NCBI RefSeq assembly: GCF_007745175.1
Contig: NZ_CP036271.1
Coordinates: 6,088,314 to 6,152,313, forward strand
Origin: Caulifigura coniformis
Lineage (GTDB): Bacteria; Planctomycetota; Planctomycetia; Planctomycetales; Planctomycetaceae
Reading direction: 5' to 3'
DNA length: 64,000 nucleotides
Positions 2,448 through 41,795 of the stretch are shown here, one piece after another (within the stretch, counting starts at the first letter, position 1; the number at the start of each line of letters is the position of its first letter). The notes beneath the pieces were generated by a model. The model was not told the DNA's origin, did no database searches, and worked only from the letters and a program-made list of their open reading frames with translations. The position numbers were made by a program, and so were the translations under genes.

Positions 2448-5141
2448 GTGACTCGTCGTGATTCAATGTTCATTGCCGGCCGACCCGCGCTGCGGCTGGC
2501 CGTCTTGTTCGTCGTCGGCCTGGTTTCGACTGGAACCCCGCTGCGGGCTCAGGATCGCGACAGGCTGCTGCGGGAGACTGCGGCTGTGCGGGCGATGAGC
2601 GAGGCTGAGGTCATTGCGCTCGTTCCGAAGCAATCGGGGCTGCAATACGTCGATTGCCCGAACTGCGAGGCGGGCCGGCAGGAGCGGCAGCTGGTCTGGA
2701 CGCTGGAGCGGCCGGACGAGGTGTCATGTCAGTTCTGCAAGCATCGGTACCCGAGCGCGAAGTATCCGGACGACAAGTCAGTCGTCGTGAAGACACCGCT
2801 GGGGAATGAGGCGCGGTTTGACTACTGGGAGAATGAATCGGGTTACCGCCATTTCTTCAAGGCCCGGCGGGATGACGAAGTGCGGCGGTACCTGGCGTCG
2901 CAGGCGAGGGCGCTGGCGAATCTGTACAGCGTGACCAAGGACCGCGCTCATGCGCGACGGGCGGCGGTGATCCTGGACCGGTTTGCGCAGGTGTTTCCTG
3001 ACTGGTGCTACCACTTTGACTACCCGTTCCAGCAGAAGCAGATCTACGACGGCGACGTCTCGCCGGCGGAGTATCGATTGGGGTTTCGCACCGCGCGGTG
3101 GAACTGGTGGGCCTATGGCGACATTCCGACGGAACTGCTTCGGGCGTACGAGTTGATCCGTGAAAGCGGGGTGCTGGCGGAACTGTCGAAAGAGCAGGGG
3201 GTCGACGTCGTCGCGCGGATCGAGAATGACCTGCTGCGCAACGCGAGTGAGCAGGTCGTCAACAACCGGGATGAACTCAGCAACATGAGCCCGGGGATGT
3301 GGAGCGACCTGGTTCGAGTCGGACAGACGCTGAAGGAGCCTCGCTACGTTCACGAAGTGGTTCGCCGGTACCGGCATCTCATTGCGACGAAGTTTTTCTA
3401 CGACGGGACCTGGTACGAAGGGGCCCCGAGCTACGGGCAGCAGACGGTGAACGCGCTGCAGGGATTCGCGCGGACGGTGCGAGGCTACAGCGATCCACCG
3501 GGATTCGTGGATGCGGTCGATCAAACCCGATTCGATAATCTGAATCTGGAAGACGAGACGCCACAGCTTGCCCGGGCGCGCTACCTGCTCAACCGCCTGA
3601 AGTTTCCGAACGGGCGTGCGGTTCCGGTGCACGATACGTGGGCGAACGACCGGAGCCGACAGGGATTGATGCCGCCGGCGTCGTACGTGTTGCCGGCTCT
3701 CGGGCATGCGTGCCTCACGAGTGGACCGGCCGAGACTCCGACGGAGTGGCATCTGACGTGGTCGGGCGGCTATGGGCATTCCCATGCGGATGTACTGGGG
3801 CTGCTGCTGTTCTCCGGCAACCGGGAAACGCTGTCTGACCTTGGCTACACGCATACGGCGTATCGCGCCTGGACGATTGCGTCGGCGGCTCACAATCTCG
3901 TCGTCATTGACGGCAAGAGCCAGGCATCAGGTTCGCAGCGGTCGCCGACGGACGGTTCGCTGCTGACGCTGGATACGCGGCATCCGCAGGTGCAGGTGGT
4001 CCGTGTGGATGGAGGGCGGGGCTATCCGAAGGTTGGCGGGAAGTACGAACGGACACTTGTTTCGGTTGATGCCGGCGCGGGCGTGCGCTATGCCGTGGAT
4101 GTGTTCGATGTCGCGGGGGGCAACGTTCACGACTACTTCCTGCATGGCGACGCCGACTCGGCGGGGTCGATTCGTATATCCGGCGTCGACCTGAAGGAGC
4201 GAGGTTCGTTGTTGCCCGAAGGGCAGAAATGGAAAGCCCCGACCAACGAGGGGCAGTCGGGGCGTGCGTATGAGCCGTATGACGCTTACGGGTTTCTTCA
4301 GAAGCTGCAGTCGGGCCTCGTCGATCCGGGCCGGCCGCCGGTTGTCGAGTTCAGAGTGGGTGATCAACCGACCGTTCGCGTCACTTTGCTGGCCGAACCG
4401 GGTTCTGAGCTGGTGGTCGGCGAGAATCCGGCAATTCGCGGGGCGGACGAGGATGATGCGCAGCTCGGCAAATTCTCTCGGCCATTCATGATGCTGCGTC
4501 ATGGAGCGATGGGCGGAGCGAGTCGGTTTGTGGCCGTGCTGGAGCCGACGGCGGGCCCGGGGATGATCAAGTCGGTCAGGCGGTTCGAGCCCCGGCCGGG
4601 CGTCCTTGTGCTGGACGTTGAGGCGGGCTCTACGCGGCAGGTGATCGTGATCGGGGCGCCTGTGGAGACGGAGATTATGACAGGGGCGATTCCAGCCGGG
4701 CGTGTCACCTTCCGCGGGGACGTGGGCGTGCTGACAGCGGACGAGAAGGGAATGGCGTTCGCGTATTCGCTGGGCGAGGGGGGATGGAACATCGAGAACC
4801 GGCGGATCGAATCGCCTGCTCCGGAGAAGGGGCTCCTGGTGCGGATCGAGGACGATGCGATCGTGGTGAATGGAGTCGCGACGGCGCCGCTTCCCAATGA
4901 TGTGATCCGCCTGGTGACGGAAGATGGCTGGGTCTATCCGTTCACGGTCGTGTCGACGGAACCAGCCGGCGACTCGCTGCGAATTCGAGTGCTGGAGACG
5001 ACAGCGATGGAACTGGACACCGCCAAGAAGACATTTGAGCTGAAGTGCTTCCCAGGGCGGATGCATCAGGGGGCGGTTTCGGTGGAATGGCTGGCGAGCC
5101 AGCTTGATGATCTGAGCGAGACGAAGAAGGAGCCCAACTGA
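2448..5141 (+). CDS. Heparinase II/III-family polysaccharide lyase, exported
   Basis: 897 residues if started at GTG 2448, which has GAGGG upstream; ATG 2466 is the alternative and places the signal peptide (LRLAVLFVVGLVSTGTPLRAQ) closer to the N-terminus. Residues 70-97 hold two CxxC pairs (C70, C73, C94, C97), probably a small zinc site. An alpha-helical region rich in Trp/Tyr follows, then at about 443 GHSHADVLGLLLF, the heparinase II/III C-terminal-domain motif with the HxHAD core. Such enzymes cleave uronic-acid polysaccharides by beta-elimination; the substrate cannot be told from sequence. The stop overlaps the next start (TGATG at 5139-5143), so it is translationally coupled to two amidohydrolase-like genes. 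Confidence 0.8.
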   Translation: MTRRDSMFIAGRPALRLAVLFVVGLVSTGTPLRAQDRDRLLRETAAVRAMSEAEVIALVPKQSGLQYVDCPNCEAGRQERQLVWTLERPDEVSCQFCKHRYPSAKYPDDKSVVVKTPLGNEARFDYWENESGYRHFFKARRDDEVRRYLASQARALANLYSVTKDRAHARRAAVILDRFAQVFPDWCYHFDYPFQQKQIYDGDVSPAEYRLGFRTARWNWWAYGDIPTELLRAYELIRESGVLAELSKEQGVDVVARIENDLLRNASEQVVNNRDELSNMSPGMWSDLVRVGQTLKEPRYVHEVVRRYRHLIATKFFYDGTWYEGAPSYGQQTVNALQGFARTVRGYSDPPGFVDAVDQTRFDNLNLEDETPQLARARYLLNRLKFPNGRAVPVHDTWANDRSRQGLMPPASYVLPALGHACLTSGPAETPTEWHLTWSGGYGHSHADVLGLLLFSGNRETLSDLGYTHTAYRAWTIASAAHNLVVIDGKSQASGSQRSPTDGSLLTLDTRHPQVQVVRVDGGRGYPKVGGKYERTLVSVDAGAGVRYAVDVFDVAGGNVHDYFLHGDADSAGSIRISGVDLKERGSLLPEGQKWKAPTNEGQSGRAYEPYDAYGFLQKLQSGLVDPGRPPVVEFRVGDQPTVRVTLLAEPGSELVVGENPAIRGADEDDAQLGKFSRPFMMLRHGAMGGASRFVAVLEPTAGPGMIKSVRRFEPRPGVLVLDVEAGSTRQVIVIGAPVETEIMTGAIPAGRVTFRGDVGVLTADEKGMAFAYSLGEGGWNIENRRIESPAPEKGLLVRIEDDAIVVNGVATAPLPNDVIRLVTEDGWVYPFTVVSTEPAGDSLRIRVLETTAMELDTAKKTFELKCFPGRMHQGAVSVEWLASQLDDLSETKKEPN

Positions 5142-37534: not shown

Positions 37535-38336
<802 letters not shown>

Positions 38337-38837
38337 TCAGCGGTCTGGATGTTCGGGATCCGTTTCCCGCTCGAGTTCGACCTCATCGATTTCGCCAAAC
38401 TGGCGAAGCTTTTTGAGGAGTGTGTTGCGATTAATTCCCAGTCTGGCCGCGGCGCGGCTTTTGACGCGGTCGCATTTCTTGTAGATGTCGGTGATGAGCT
38501 GACGTTCGACGCGGCCGACAATCTGCTCGAGCATATTGTGGGCCAGCGGTCCGGCGTCGCGAAGTTCCTGTTCGATGGCCGCCTCGAGCTGCGACGGGGA
38601 GTCCTGCATCCCGAGGTCCCGGTTCGAGGATTTCGCCTCATCGCCGAGGACGGTCAGCAGGATTCGTCCGGCCTGCTCATCAGACACAACGACTTCGATT
38701 CGCGTCTCCCCTTTTTCCAGTGACGGGAACGCGGTGTCCGCGGTCAAAGTCACCGGGCCGGCGTCTCCACGACGGGCGGCCACCTCGGATTGTCCGTCGT
38801 CCTGGAACGGGATGACGATGGCAATAACTCGCTTCAT
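38337..38837 (-). CDS. Fis-type HTH regulator with P-II-like N-terminal segments
   Basis: 166 residues. The C-terminal part (about 102-149) is a Fis-type domain: RVERQLITDIYKKC, then SRAAARLGINRNTLLKKLRQ, very like the DNA-binding end of E. coli Fis and of NtrC-type regulators. The N-terminus (MKRVIAIVIPF, residues 1-11) and residues 46-68 (RIEVVVSDEQAGRILLTVLG) resemble the first strand and the beta3-alpha2 segment of P-II ([29 protein letters not shown]) encoded next door. The T-loop and the GDGKIF segment are missing. It lies between amtB and the two P-II genes and probably regulates this nitrogen cluster. Confidence 0.75.
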   Translation of the reverse strand: MKRVIAIVIPFQDDGQSEVAARRGDAGPVTLTADTAFPSLEKGETRIEVVVSDEQAGRILLTVLGDEAKSSNRDLGMQDSPSQLEAAIEQELRDAGPLAHNMLEQIVGRVERQLITDIYKKCDRVKSRAAARLGINRNTLLKKLRQFGEIDEVELERETDPEHPDR

Positions 38838-39025
38838 GCCGTGATCGACCGAAAGATCCGCGGAGTGGAAAACGCTGGTCGGAATCGTCCGGCGCCTGGC
38901 AGCAATTTGGCGTCGGGACGATCGAGGGGCGCCACCGAGTCGATGACGCCTTCAATCGAGCAGTGGGATCGCGACCGCCAGACGCCGACGGGAGACGTGC
39001 GGCGTCCGGCAGTTGCGCCCTGGAG

Positions 39026-40417
39026 TTACTTCGGATCGAGGCCGTAAGCCATCTGGCCGTGTTCGACCATATCGAGGCCTTCGATTTCTTCTTCCGGCGG
39101 GACGCGGAGAAGTCCAATGGCCTTCAGGAACAAGAAGACGATCATCATGGTGACGAAGGCCCAGACTGTGCAGGCCAGCGTTCCCTTGATCTGGACCATC
39201 AGGTCCTTGCCTTCACCAAAGATGCCGGTGGCGATTCCGCCCCAGACACCGCAGACGCCGTGCACCGGGAAGGCGCCGACCGGGTCGTCGATCTTGAACT
39301 TGTCGAGAGCGACGACTGCGAGGAGGCAAAGGACGCCGGCGACGGCGCCGATGATCAGTGCTTCCTGGTTGGTGATCACATCGGCGTTGGCGGTCACGCC
39401 GACGAGTCCGGCGAGGATTCCGTTGAGTGCGAGTGTGAGATCAGGCTTCTTGAACATGACCCAGCTGAGAAGCATTCCAGAGAGGCCACCGGCGCAGGCG
39501 CCGAGGGTGGTGTTCACCGCGACCGTCATGACGAGTCCGGTGTTGGCCGCTCCCGAGAAGGCGAGGACGCTCCCCGGGTTGAACCCGTACCAGCCGATCA
39601 TGAGGATGAACACACCGAGGCAGGCGTAGGCGAGGTTATGGCCGGGCCAGGGGACCGACTTGCCTTCGGCGTTGTAACGGCCGAGCCTGGGGCCGAGGAC
39701 CATGGCGCCTGCAAGACCGGCAAATCCACCGACTGCGTGGACGAGGATCGATCCGGCGAAGTCGTGGAAGCCGGCTTCGGCGAGCCATCCGCCGCCCCAT
39801 TTCCACATGCCGCTGATGGGGTAAACGAGCGCAGTGATGATGCAGGTGTAGATCAGGTAGCCGATGAACTTCATGCGTCCGGCGACAGCGCCGGAGACGA
39901 TGGTGGCGGTGGTGGCGCAGAACGCGGCCTGGAACAGGAAGTCGGCCTGGGGATGCAGCTTGCGCAGGGCGCCGCTGGCGAAGCCGCCGTGAATATCTTC
40001 GGCAGTCACTTCCGCGGCGAAGTTGGGCTGTGCATAGCCGAAGTACTTCCCGGCGTAGTCGCCGCCGGGATACATGAGGGCATAGCCGATGAAGAAGTAG
40101 AGAAGCACGCCGACGCAGAAATCGATCGTGTTCTTGAAGAGGATGTTGACGGTGTTCTTGGCGGAGTTGAGTCCGGATTCCACGAGGGCGAAGCCGGCCT
40201 GCATGAAGATGACGAGGACCGCGCAGAGGAACAGCAGGAGGTTGTCGACCGAATAGGCCAGCGTTTCGTTATCGGGGATGTCGAAGGTCGGGGCCGGCGT
40301 CTCTGCGGCAGGCGCTGCCGCGGCGGCGGCATCCTGTGCCCAGGCGGTCGAAGTATGTCCGATGGCGACAGACCCGATCGCCGCCAAGCAAAGCCCCATG
40401 AGAACCCAACGCTTCAT
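39026..40417 (-). CDS. amtB: Ammonium transporter with signal peptide
   Basis: 463 residues from ATG 40417 (GAGGG upstream). The signal peptide MKRWVLMGLCLAAIGSVAIG is followed by an Ala-rich stretch, then eleven predicted TM helices. The pore twin histidines are visible in DFAGSILVHAVGG (about 226) and FPVHGVCGVWGG (about 388), and AGFALVESGLNSAKNTVNI is the Amt signature. The C-terminal tail (EEEIEGLDMVEHGQMAYG) is the P-II-responsive region. It is the first gene of a minus-strand cluster with a Fis-type gene and two P-II genes, the standard amtB-glnK linkage with an extra regulator. Confidence 0.97.
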   Translation of the reverse strand: MKRWVLMGLCLAAIGSVAIGHTSTAWAQDAAAAAAPAAETPAPTFDIPDNETLAYSVDNLLLFLCAVLVIFMQAGFALVESGLNSAKNTVNILFKNTIDFCVGVLLYFFIGYALMYPGGDYAGKYFGYAQPNFAAEVTAEDIHGGFASGALRKLHPQADFLFQAAFCATTATIVSGAVAGRMKFIGYLIYTCIITALVYPISGMWKWGGGWLAEAGFHDFAGSILVHAVGGFAGLAGAMVLGPRLGRYNAEGKSVPWPGHNLAYACLGVFILMIGWYGFNPGSVLAFSGAANTGLVMTVAVNTTLGACAGGLSGMLLSWVMFKKPDLTLALNGILAGLVGVTANADVITNQEALIIGAVAGVLCLLAVVALDKFKIDDPVGAFPVHGVCGVWGGIATGIFGEGKDLMVQIKGTLACTVWAFVTMMIVFLFLKAIGLLRVPPEEEIEGLDMVEHGQMAYGLDPK

Positions 40418-40844
40418 GATGAATGTCCCTCTCTGGTGAACGAAAGTCATCAACTGAGAATTCGAAGTCGCGCGACGCTCGCGGACAGAGTGTTTCCAAC
40501 CGTGGAGGGAGAATGGGCCGACGATCCATCGACGAACCCGTCAGGCAACGACGACATCCGTGTGGCGAGAGATGCCGCCGGGAGGGGTGGCGTCGCGCGC
40601 AGGGAGGTCGCAGAAGCTGCAGAAAGAGCTGAAGAACCCCGGCCTTGAAGTCAGGCGAGGAAGAGCATGCTTGCCTTGCAAGCTGGCAGTCCGCTGAAGC
40701 ACGCCTCGAAGACGCCCCTCAGTTGACCACCTCGATCCCTTTGCTGTCGATGCCGTCGCACGGATGAGCGGCCGCGCGGCGTAGATGTTCAGATGCGCGA
40801 CATGCTAGCGGCGCGGGCGTCGATCGCCTAAGAATCTCTTTGAT
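40418..40844. other. Divergent intergenic region amtB / lysR-type gene
   Basis: 427 bp without a gene. A perfect short inverted repeat GCTTGC-ctt-GCAAGC lies at 40669-40683. No sigma54 (-24/-12) pair was found upstream of amtB on reading. It probably carries promoters for both flanking genes. Confidence 0.4.
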
Positions 40845-41795
40845 ATGCGATCCATAACCAAAAGTGATCCGTTCCGCCTTCTGCGGCAGGTGAACCTCAA
40901 TCACCTGCTGTATTTCTGGGCGGTGGGGCAAACCGGCAGCGTCACGGCCGCAGCGGCGCGGCTGGGCATTTCTCAGCCAGGCGTCACCAAGCAGTTGAGG
41001 CTGCTTGAACACCGTCTTGGGGCGCGCCTGTTCGAACGGGAAGCGCGGGGTGTCCGGCTGACGGAGCACGGCCTGGTCGCGATGCGGTACGCGGAGGAGG
41101 TGATCGGCGTCTGCACGGAACTTGTTCGCAATGTCCCATTGCAGGGTGCAAAGACGCAGCGGCCGATCACCGCGGGGACCGCAGACGGAGTGCCGAAGAT
41201 CGTGATCCGGGCGCTGCTCCAGCCGTTGATGGCCGGGCCGGACTCACCGCGGGTGGTGTGCAAGGAGTGGCGAATTGACCACCTGCTGAGCGAGTTGTCG
41301 CTGCACCGCCTGGACTTGGTGATCAGCGATTCGCCGCTGCCCGAGTCGGGTCAACACTCGCTCAGCAGCTTCACGGCGATGTCTTCTCCGGTGGATCTCT
41401 ACGCGGCGCCGCGGGTGGCGCGGAAGTTCAAGAAGGGCTTTCCGGGTTCGCTGGCCAACGCGCCGATGCTGATGCCGGCCGAAGGGACGTCGCCGAGGGC
41501 CGCGCTGGACCGCTGGTTTGCCCTGCACCGGACGCGTCCACGAATTGCTGCCGAGGCCGAGGATCGTTCGCTCCTGCATCATTTTGCGGAGTCGGAACTG
41601 GGAATCGTGCCGGTCGCGTCCATCACCGCCGCGGACGTCATGCGGCAATTCGGCCTGGTTCGAATCGGGAGTCTGCCGAACGTCCGTGAGGAGTACTACC
41701 TCATTACGGTCGCCCGGCAGAACGAGCATCCCGCCCTGTCGAAGCTGCGAAAGGATCTGGCCGAGTCCGCGCTTCGGCGACGTTCCCGGCGTTGA
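40845..41795 (+). CDS. LysR-family regulator, NhaR-like
   Basis: 316 residues. The N-terminal HTH (about 17-75) is LNHLLYFWAVGQTGSVTAAA, LGISQPGVTKQLRLLEHRLG, RLFEREARGVRLTEHG; the 'LNxxLYFW' opening is that of NhaR-like members. The rest is a periplasmic-binding-protein-like effector domain. NhaR controls the sodium/proton antiporter gene in E. coli, but no nhaA is visible here, so the target is unknown. It faces a 427-bp gap divergent from amtB and ends 39 bp from the convergent RND pump gene. Confidence 0.88.
   Translation: MRSITKSDPFRLLRQVNLNHLLYFWAVGQTGSVTAAAARLGISQPGVTKQLRLLEHRLGARLFEREARGVRLTEHGLVAMRYAEEVIGVCTELVRNVPLQGAKTQRPITAGTADGVPKIVIRALLQPLMAGPDSPRVVCKEWRIDHLLSELSLHRLDLVISDSPLPESGQHSLSSFTAMSSPVDLYAAPRVARKFKKGFPGSLANAPMLMPAEGTSPRAALDRWFALHRTRPRIAAEAEDRSLLHHFAESELGIVPVASITAADVMRQFGLVRIGSLPNVREEYYLITVARQNEHPALSKLRKDLAESALRRRSRR

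Follow-up and report, generated by a model that had tools for sequence, protein, structure and literature searches.

P-II proteins (GlnB/GlnK, PF00543) act by touching other proteins, and we know of no P-II descendant that has a DNA-binding domain of its own. In the openly accessible literature, with subscription papers outside the search, neither a P-II/Fis fusion nor a DNA-binding member of the P-II family was found. The closest described systems are considered part by part: P-II itself, Fis of E. coli and Pseudomonas (HTH_8), and the DNA-binding domain of NtrC, which belongs to the same domain family as Fis and is linked to nitrogen genes. The P-II fold is beta1-alpha1-beta2-beta3-alpha2-beta4, in which ATP is contacted by Thr29, Ile38, Gln39, Val64, Gly87, Lys90, Arg101 and Arg103, and 2-oxoglutarate by Gln39, Gly41, Arg9 and Lys58 (PMC8395244).

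The window analysed here is a stretch of 64,000 nucleotides from Caulifigura coniformis. It contains an open reading frame, called fisA below, for which the first-pass annotation had suggested a P-II-derived regulator fused to a Fis domain and located between amtB and two glnK genes. The open reading frame list and Pfam confirm that location, the neighbouring products matching Ammonium_transp (E 2.5e-120) and P-II (E 1.2e-34 and 8.9e-32). The features of the locus are:

39026 to 40417, minus strand: amtB, ammonium transporter (likely start MKRWVLMG; the open reading frame opens at 40453)
38970 to 39017, minus strand: stable RNA hairpin in the gap between amtB and fisA (z -3.78)
38337 to 38837, minus strand: fisA, P-II-derived/Fis gene, 166 aa with ATG start (open reading frame and alignment)
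38808 to 38837, minus strand: fisA residues 1-10, block resembling P-II strand 1 (M1 and K2 invariant in 16 members)
38706 to 38807, minus strand: fisA residues 11-44, variable linker where P-II has helix 1, strand 2 and the T-loop (alignment)
38628 to 38705, minus strand: fisA residues 45-70, block resembling P-II strand 3 - helix 2 (E48 invariant)
38388 to 38603, minus strand: fisA residues 79-150, Fis/NtrC-type dimerisation helices and helix-turn-helix
37956 to 38294, minus strand: glnK1, intact P-II with T-, B- and C-loops
37535 to 37882, minus strand: glnK2, intact P-II

The four genes follow one another on the minus strand as amtB, 188 nt, fisA, 42 nt, glnK1, 73 nt and glnK2, a putative operon with amtB upstream, in which fisA would probably be co-transcribed with amtB and glnK. 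The hairpin, which stands directly after the amtB stop codon and has no T tract, is a possible processing or attenuation element. A LysR-type regulator gene, named by eye, is divergent from amtB (40845-41795, plus strand).

The C-terminal part of the fisA product is a Fis-type domain, as the first-pass annotation had read it. HTH_8 (PF02954), which is the only Pfam domain found in the protein, covers residues 109-147 (E 7.9e-9; 35.6 bits, with a gathering threshold of 22) and matches all 16 members of the family described below. AF2 places C-terminal helices at residues 82-94, 102-121, 126-133 and 137-146, the first two being the dimerisation helices that precede the helix-turn-helix, and the top Foldseek matches are E. 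coli Fis, with about 70-77 residues aligned, followed by NtrC-type domains. The protein shares with Fis this C-terminal fold of about 75 residues and the recognition segment R-N/G-T-x-x-K-K; Arg137, Asn138, Thr139, Lys142 and Lys143 are invariant in this region, as are the recognition-helix residues across the family, and the matching residues of Fis contact DNA. On the other hand, the Fis equivalogs NF001659 and NF002517 are far from being reached (30.5 against 99 bits and 42.1 against 122 bits), the NCBIfam Fis and NtrC models all score well below their equivalog cut-offs, and the N-terminus and the linkage to amtB and glnK set the protein apart from Fis. Residues 73-152 are most closely related to the C-terminal ends of planctomycete sigma-54 activators of about 350 aa, whereas the 166-aa protein has no AAA+ domain (Pfam) and, unlike NtrC, no receiver domain either. 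One of these activators (L207:3925-4941), a receiver-less protein of about 340-350 aa whose C-terminus stands closest to the Fis part, occurs in nearly all Planctomycetaceae genomes searched.

The likeness of residues 1-11 and 46-68 to P-II, which had been proposed from the single sequence, stands above chance when the family profile is used. In a Pfam scan of single members, PF00543 matched none of the 16 even at E 10, and therefore profiles were needed. A first N-terminal profile search of the own genome at E<=10 missed its four P-II genes; scored directly on glnK1, that profile reaches about 8 bits, too weak for a search of the own genome. Alignment A2 (residues 1-70) consists of two blocks, MKRVI... 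and (R/K)(V/L/I)E(A/V)x(V/L)S with the following helix, which are separated by the variable linker. Searched with hmmsearch against 177,635 PDB sequences, A2 gave six matches up to E 10, every one of them P-II or PII-like, the best at E 7.1e-4 in a register that aligns M1 to M1. In 294 whole genomes translated in six frames, P-II genes supply the top two matches from outside the family (5.3e-4 and 5.8e-4), and more of them follow at E 0.006 and 0.026 amid unrelated weak matches. P-II also accounts for 20 of the 25 top matches among 6,739 unique open reading frames (39 of them P-II); since this set is enriched in P-II, some loci having been fetched around P-II genes, the PDB and 294-genome tests weigh more. 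Profiles made clade by clade ranked P-II first in three clades independently, while the profile of the divergent g210 clade alone carried no P-II signal. Alignment with 39 planctomycete P-II proteins in hhalign gave a local P of 4.3e-5 (probability 69%) and a global P of 3.5e-6, both uncalibrated. Judged by these comparisons, P-II strand 1 and strand 3 - helix 2 are very likely homologous to the two blocks of fisA.

The structural prediction is consistent with the same segments. A disordered N-terminus or another fold had been named in the first-pass annotation as contrary to its reading; AF2 instead gives a strand - strand - helix arrangement that coincides exactly with the P-II-like segments (strands 2-8 and 45-51, helix 53-72), with a disordered linker between them (residues 11-44, pLDDT <50, under relaxed selection) and the four Fis helices after them. 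A short family member is also predicted as strand - strand - helix, the mean pLDDT of the two models being modest (66 and 73). The complete beta-alpha-beta-beta-alpha-beta fold of P-II is thus reduced to two strands and one helix, and the strands that are kept are the two central ones of the P-II sheet. Loss of the T-loop and of the GDGKIF loop, also noted at first pass, is supported by the alignment and by residue comparison: in the family the variable linker, which shrinks to about 15 residues in L005, replaces helix 1, strand 2 and the T-loop, and the B-loop (GDGK), strand 4 and the C-loop are absent. The P-II ligand residues T29, Q39, K58, G87, K90, R101 and R103 are missing, including those of the T-loop, the B-loop GDGK and the C-loop RxR, and family positions 9 and 44, which correspond to Arg9 and Lys58, are not conserved; the protein has a DNA-binding domain instead. 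In contrast to these losses, Glu48 is invariant in the family and aligns with P-II E62. Since the parts that hold the ligands are lost, sensing of ATP or 2-oxoglutarate by the fisA product itself would not be expected from its sequence.

Searches for the family covered the planctomycete family, order and class. Among 170 Planctomycetaceae genomes, 16 contain the gene, with 17 full-length copies altogether (E <= 3.5e-29), and no full-length copy came from the other sampled families of the class; below a clear gap only the sigma-54 activators of about 350 aa follow, matching positions 73-155. A scan of genome contigs likewise returned mostly sigma-54 activators; its only family members, L079 and L080, are the copies of G280 and G254 that the other searches had given. 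Short open reading frames in L066, L069, L070, L077 and L078 were considered and set aside as contig-end pieces or close relatives of the sigma-54 activators. In the alignment of 16 members (A1) the invariant residues are M1, K2, E48, V110, E111, C122, A130, L133, G134, R137, N138, T139, K142, K143 and L144. One copy is a full-length paralogue in the same genome (fisB, G000:C1:1148454), which is 46% identical to fisA and is followed immediately by a second amtB gene and another glnK pair.

Altogether, amtB and/or glnK adjoin 15 of the 17 copies, in three arrangements. In the first, all genes are on the same strand, as amtB-fis-glnK or amtB-fis (the window, G024, G254 and G255) or, in the second cluster of the own genome, as fis-amtB-glnK-glnK; in G024 (L005) the frames of fis and glnK share 4 nt in an ATGA overlap. 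In the second, found in genus g169 and G278, amtB is divergent and a Ser/Thr-kinase-like gene stands in between (of the L064 amtB the N-terminal end alone is seen, identified by its likeness to the L061 start). In the third, in genus g210, glnK is divergent. The copies of G280 and G355 have neither gene nearby, the G355 contig being short (7 kb). The distribution is patchy, since a genome of the same genus has the amtB-glnK cluster and no fis gene.

Selection was compared between the parts of the gene within genus g169. Block 1 has dN 0-0.12 and dS 0.14-0.57, block 2 has dN 0.04-0.12 and dS 0.65-2.3 where defined, and the Fis part has dN 0.006-0.09 and dS 0.27-2.0, whereas the linker has dN 0.23-0.69 and dS 0.56-1.7. 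Purifying selection acts strongly on the two P-II-like blocks, as it does on the DNA-binding domain, but not on the linker.

What function could such a protein perform? We consider it rather probable that fisA encodes a small DNA-binding regulator, assembled from a partial P-II copy and the C-terminus of a sigma-54 activator, which controls amtB and glnK and uses its N-terminus as a protein-interaction module. The gene may have arisen when a partial glnK copy, comprising strand 1 and strand 3 - helix 2, was fused to the dimerisation and helix-turn-helix region of the activator. In the P-II relatives that score best, the stretch of strand 3 - helix 2 is similar (KLDVIVSDSQAQAVIDKI in L184 and KIEVVVSDDMAQAVIDTV in L216), and this similarity, together with the position beside glnK, agrees with such an origin; the P-II-like blocks do not have the length that a tree would require. 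The product would most likely bind as a Fis-type dimer at the amtB/glnK promoters and tune their expression. Because the ATP and 2-oxoglutarate residues are lost, the N-terminal part is probably an interaction module and not a metabolite sensor. A selected P-II fragment on a Fis domain in amtB-glnK clusters would represent a new route from a sensor family to a transcription factor and makes fisA a candidate regulator through which Planctomycetaceae could control their ammonium uptake genes locally; nitrogen-transport genes may there be under the control of a descendant of their own sensor.

Two partners are conceivable for the proposed module: as the edge strands are gone, the retained central strands could pair with a second copy of themselves or with a P-II subunit. 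On the one hand, the two strand-helix units may only self-pair within the dimer, building a four-stranded sheet with two helices; the protein would then dimerise constitutively without any ligand, and its activity would depend on how much of it is present (autoregulation). The predicted strand - strand - helix, the Fis dimerisation helices and the disappearance of every ligand residue speak for this, so that it has a real, if not quite even, chance of being correct, but it leaves unexplained why a P-II relic is retained beside glnK. On the other hand, the module may dock on GlnK subunits, by which the regulator would read the nitrogen state that GlnK carries. The physical linkage to glnK, the translational overlap in L005 and the purifying selection on the two central P-II strands are in favour of docking. 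However, the module has neither the edge strands (2 and 4) nor any of the loops through which P-II makes its subunit and ligand contacts, and the Fis part forms dimers whereas P-II forms trimers, which leaves docking a doubtful choice. We infer that self-pairing stands somewhat above docking. A P-II descendant that docks on GlnK as a transcription factor, so that the P-II state is read at the amtB/glnK promoter without an NtrB/NtrC relay, is improbable. Trimerisation in the manner of P-II, which the first-pass annotation had entertained, appears unlikely, since the protein lacks strands 2 and 4 and its Fis part has a fold that dimerises.

Against the proposed P-II ancestry it could be argued that the N-terminal likeness arose by convergence and that a Fis-like protein simply bears a generic extension of the form strand - loop - strand - helix. 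The blocks are indeed short (about 10 and 26 residues), the bit scores are modest, and PF00543 misses all members. Yet all six PDB matches and most of the top open reading frame matches are P-II, the register includes M1, glnK adjoins the gene, and either block alone enriches P-II among the 6,739 open reading frames; moreover, of 300 within-block column shuffles none reached the real A2 score (16.4 bits, compared with a shuffled maximum of 10.2). Convergence is accordingly a quite unlikely explanation. That fisA is a decaying relic without function, as its patchy presence in 16 of 170 genomes might suggest, is scarcely credible, given that the two P-II blocks and the Fis domain are strongly constrained by purifying selection and that the DNA-contact residues are invariant, and it is refuted for genus g169 by dN/dS.

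The promoter regions were also searched. No operator was identified in the window's own loci, a sigma-54 promoter scan gave no excess over chance, a sigma-70 scan of 38280-39060 gave no match, and the fis-glnK intergenic alignment of genus g210 showed no clear common site. In genus g169 and G278 the palindrome CAGCACnnGTGCTG is conserved upstream of amtB, in the intergenic region that separates it from the kinase-fis genes (L061:1344-1679 and the same stretch in L062, L064, L065 and L075), and its exact form occurs once in the 9.5-Mb genome G243. As it is limited to that genus and absent from the window's own loci, it was rejected as operator evidence and is mentioned as a lead only.

Several minor observations concern the neighbourhoods. 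In genus g169 fis is flanked by Ser/Thr-kinase-like and GAF-domain-like genes (L061:1680-2687 and 3567-4154), the latter being reminiscent of a nitrogen-type PTS enzyme I (all named by eye). L205 (G087, of the same genus as the window) has amtB1-amtB2-glnK1-glnK2 in one cluster with no Fis-like gene, whereas in the window genome the two amtB genes lie in separate clusters, each with a Fis-like gene and a glnK pair. The glnK1-glnK2 pairs of these clusters (window 37535-38337; L076:6740-7504) share a 764-bp tract that is 97% identical including the spacer, which is the mark of a recent duplication or gene conversion; the glnK1 proteins are 100% identical, and amtB (30%) and the Fis-like proteins (about 45%) are far diverged. 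Finally, a P-II-like stretch (MRRLTIVADEDL...VRIEVVIPQFVCEDVV) is found at the C-terminus of a 661-aa SulP-like transporter in G024 (L225:415-2400), and similarly long P-II-matching frames occur in G278, G249, G256 and, weakly, G087.
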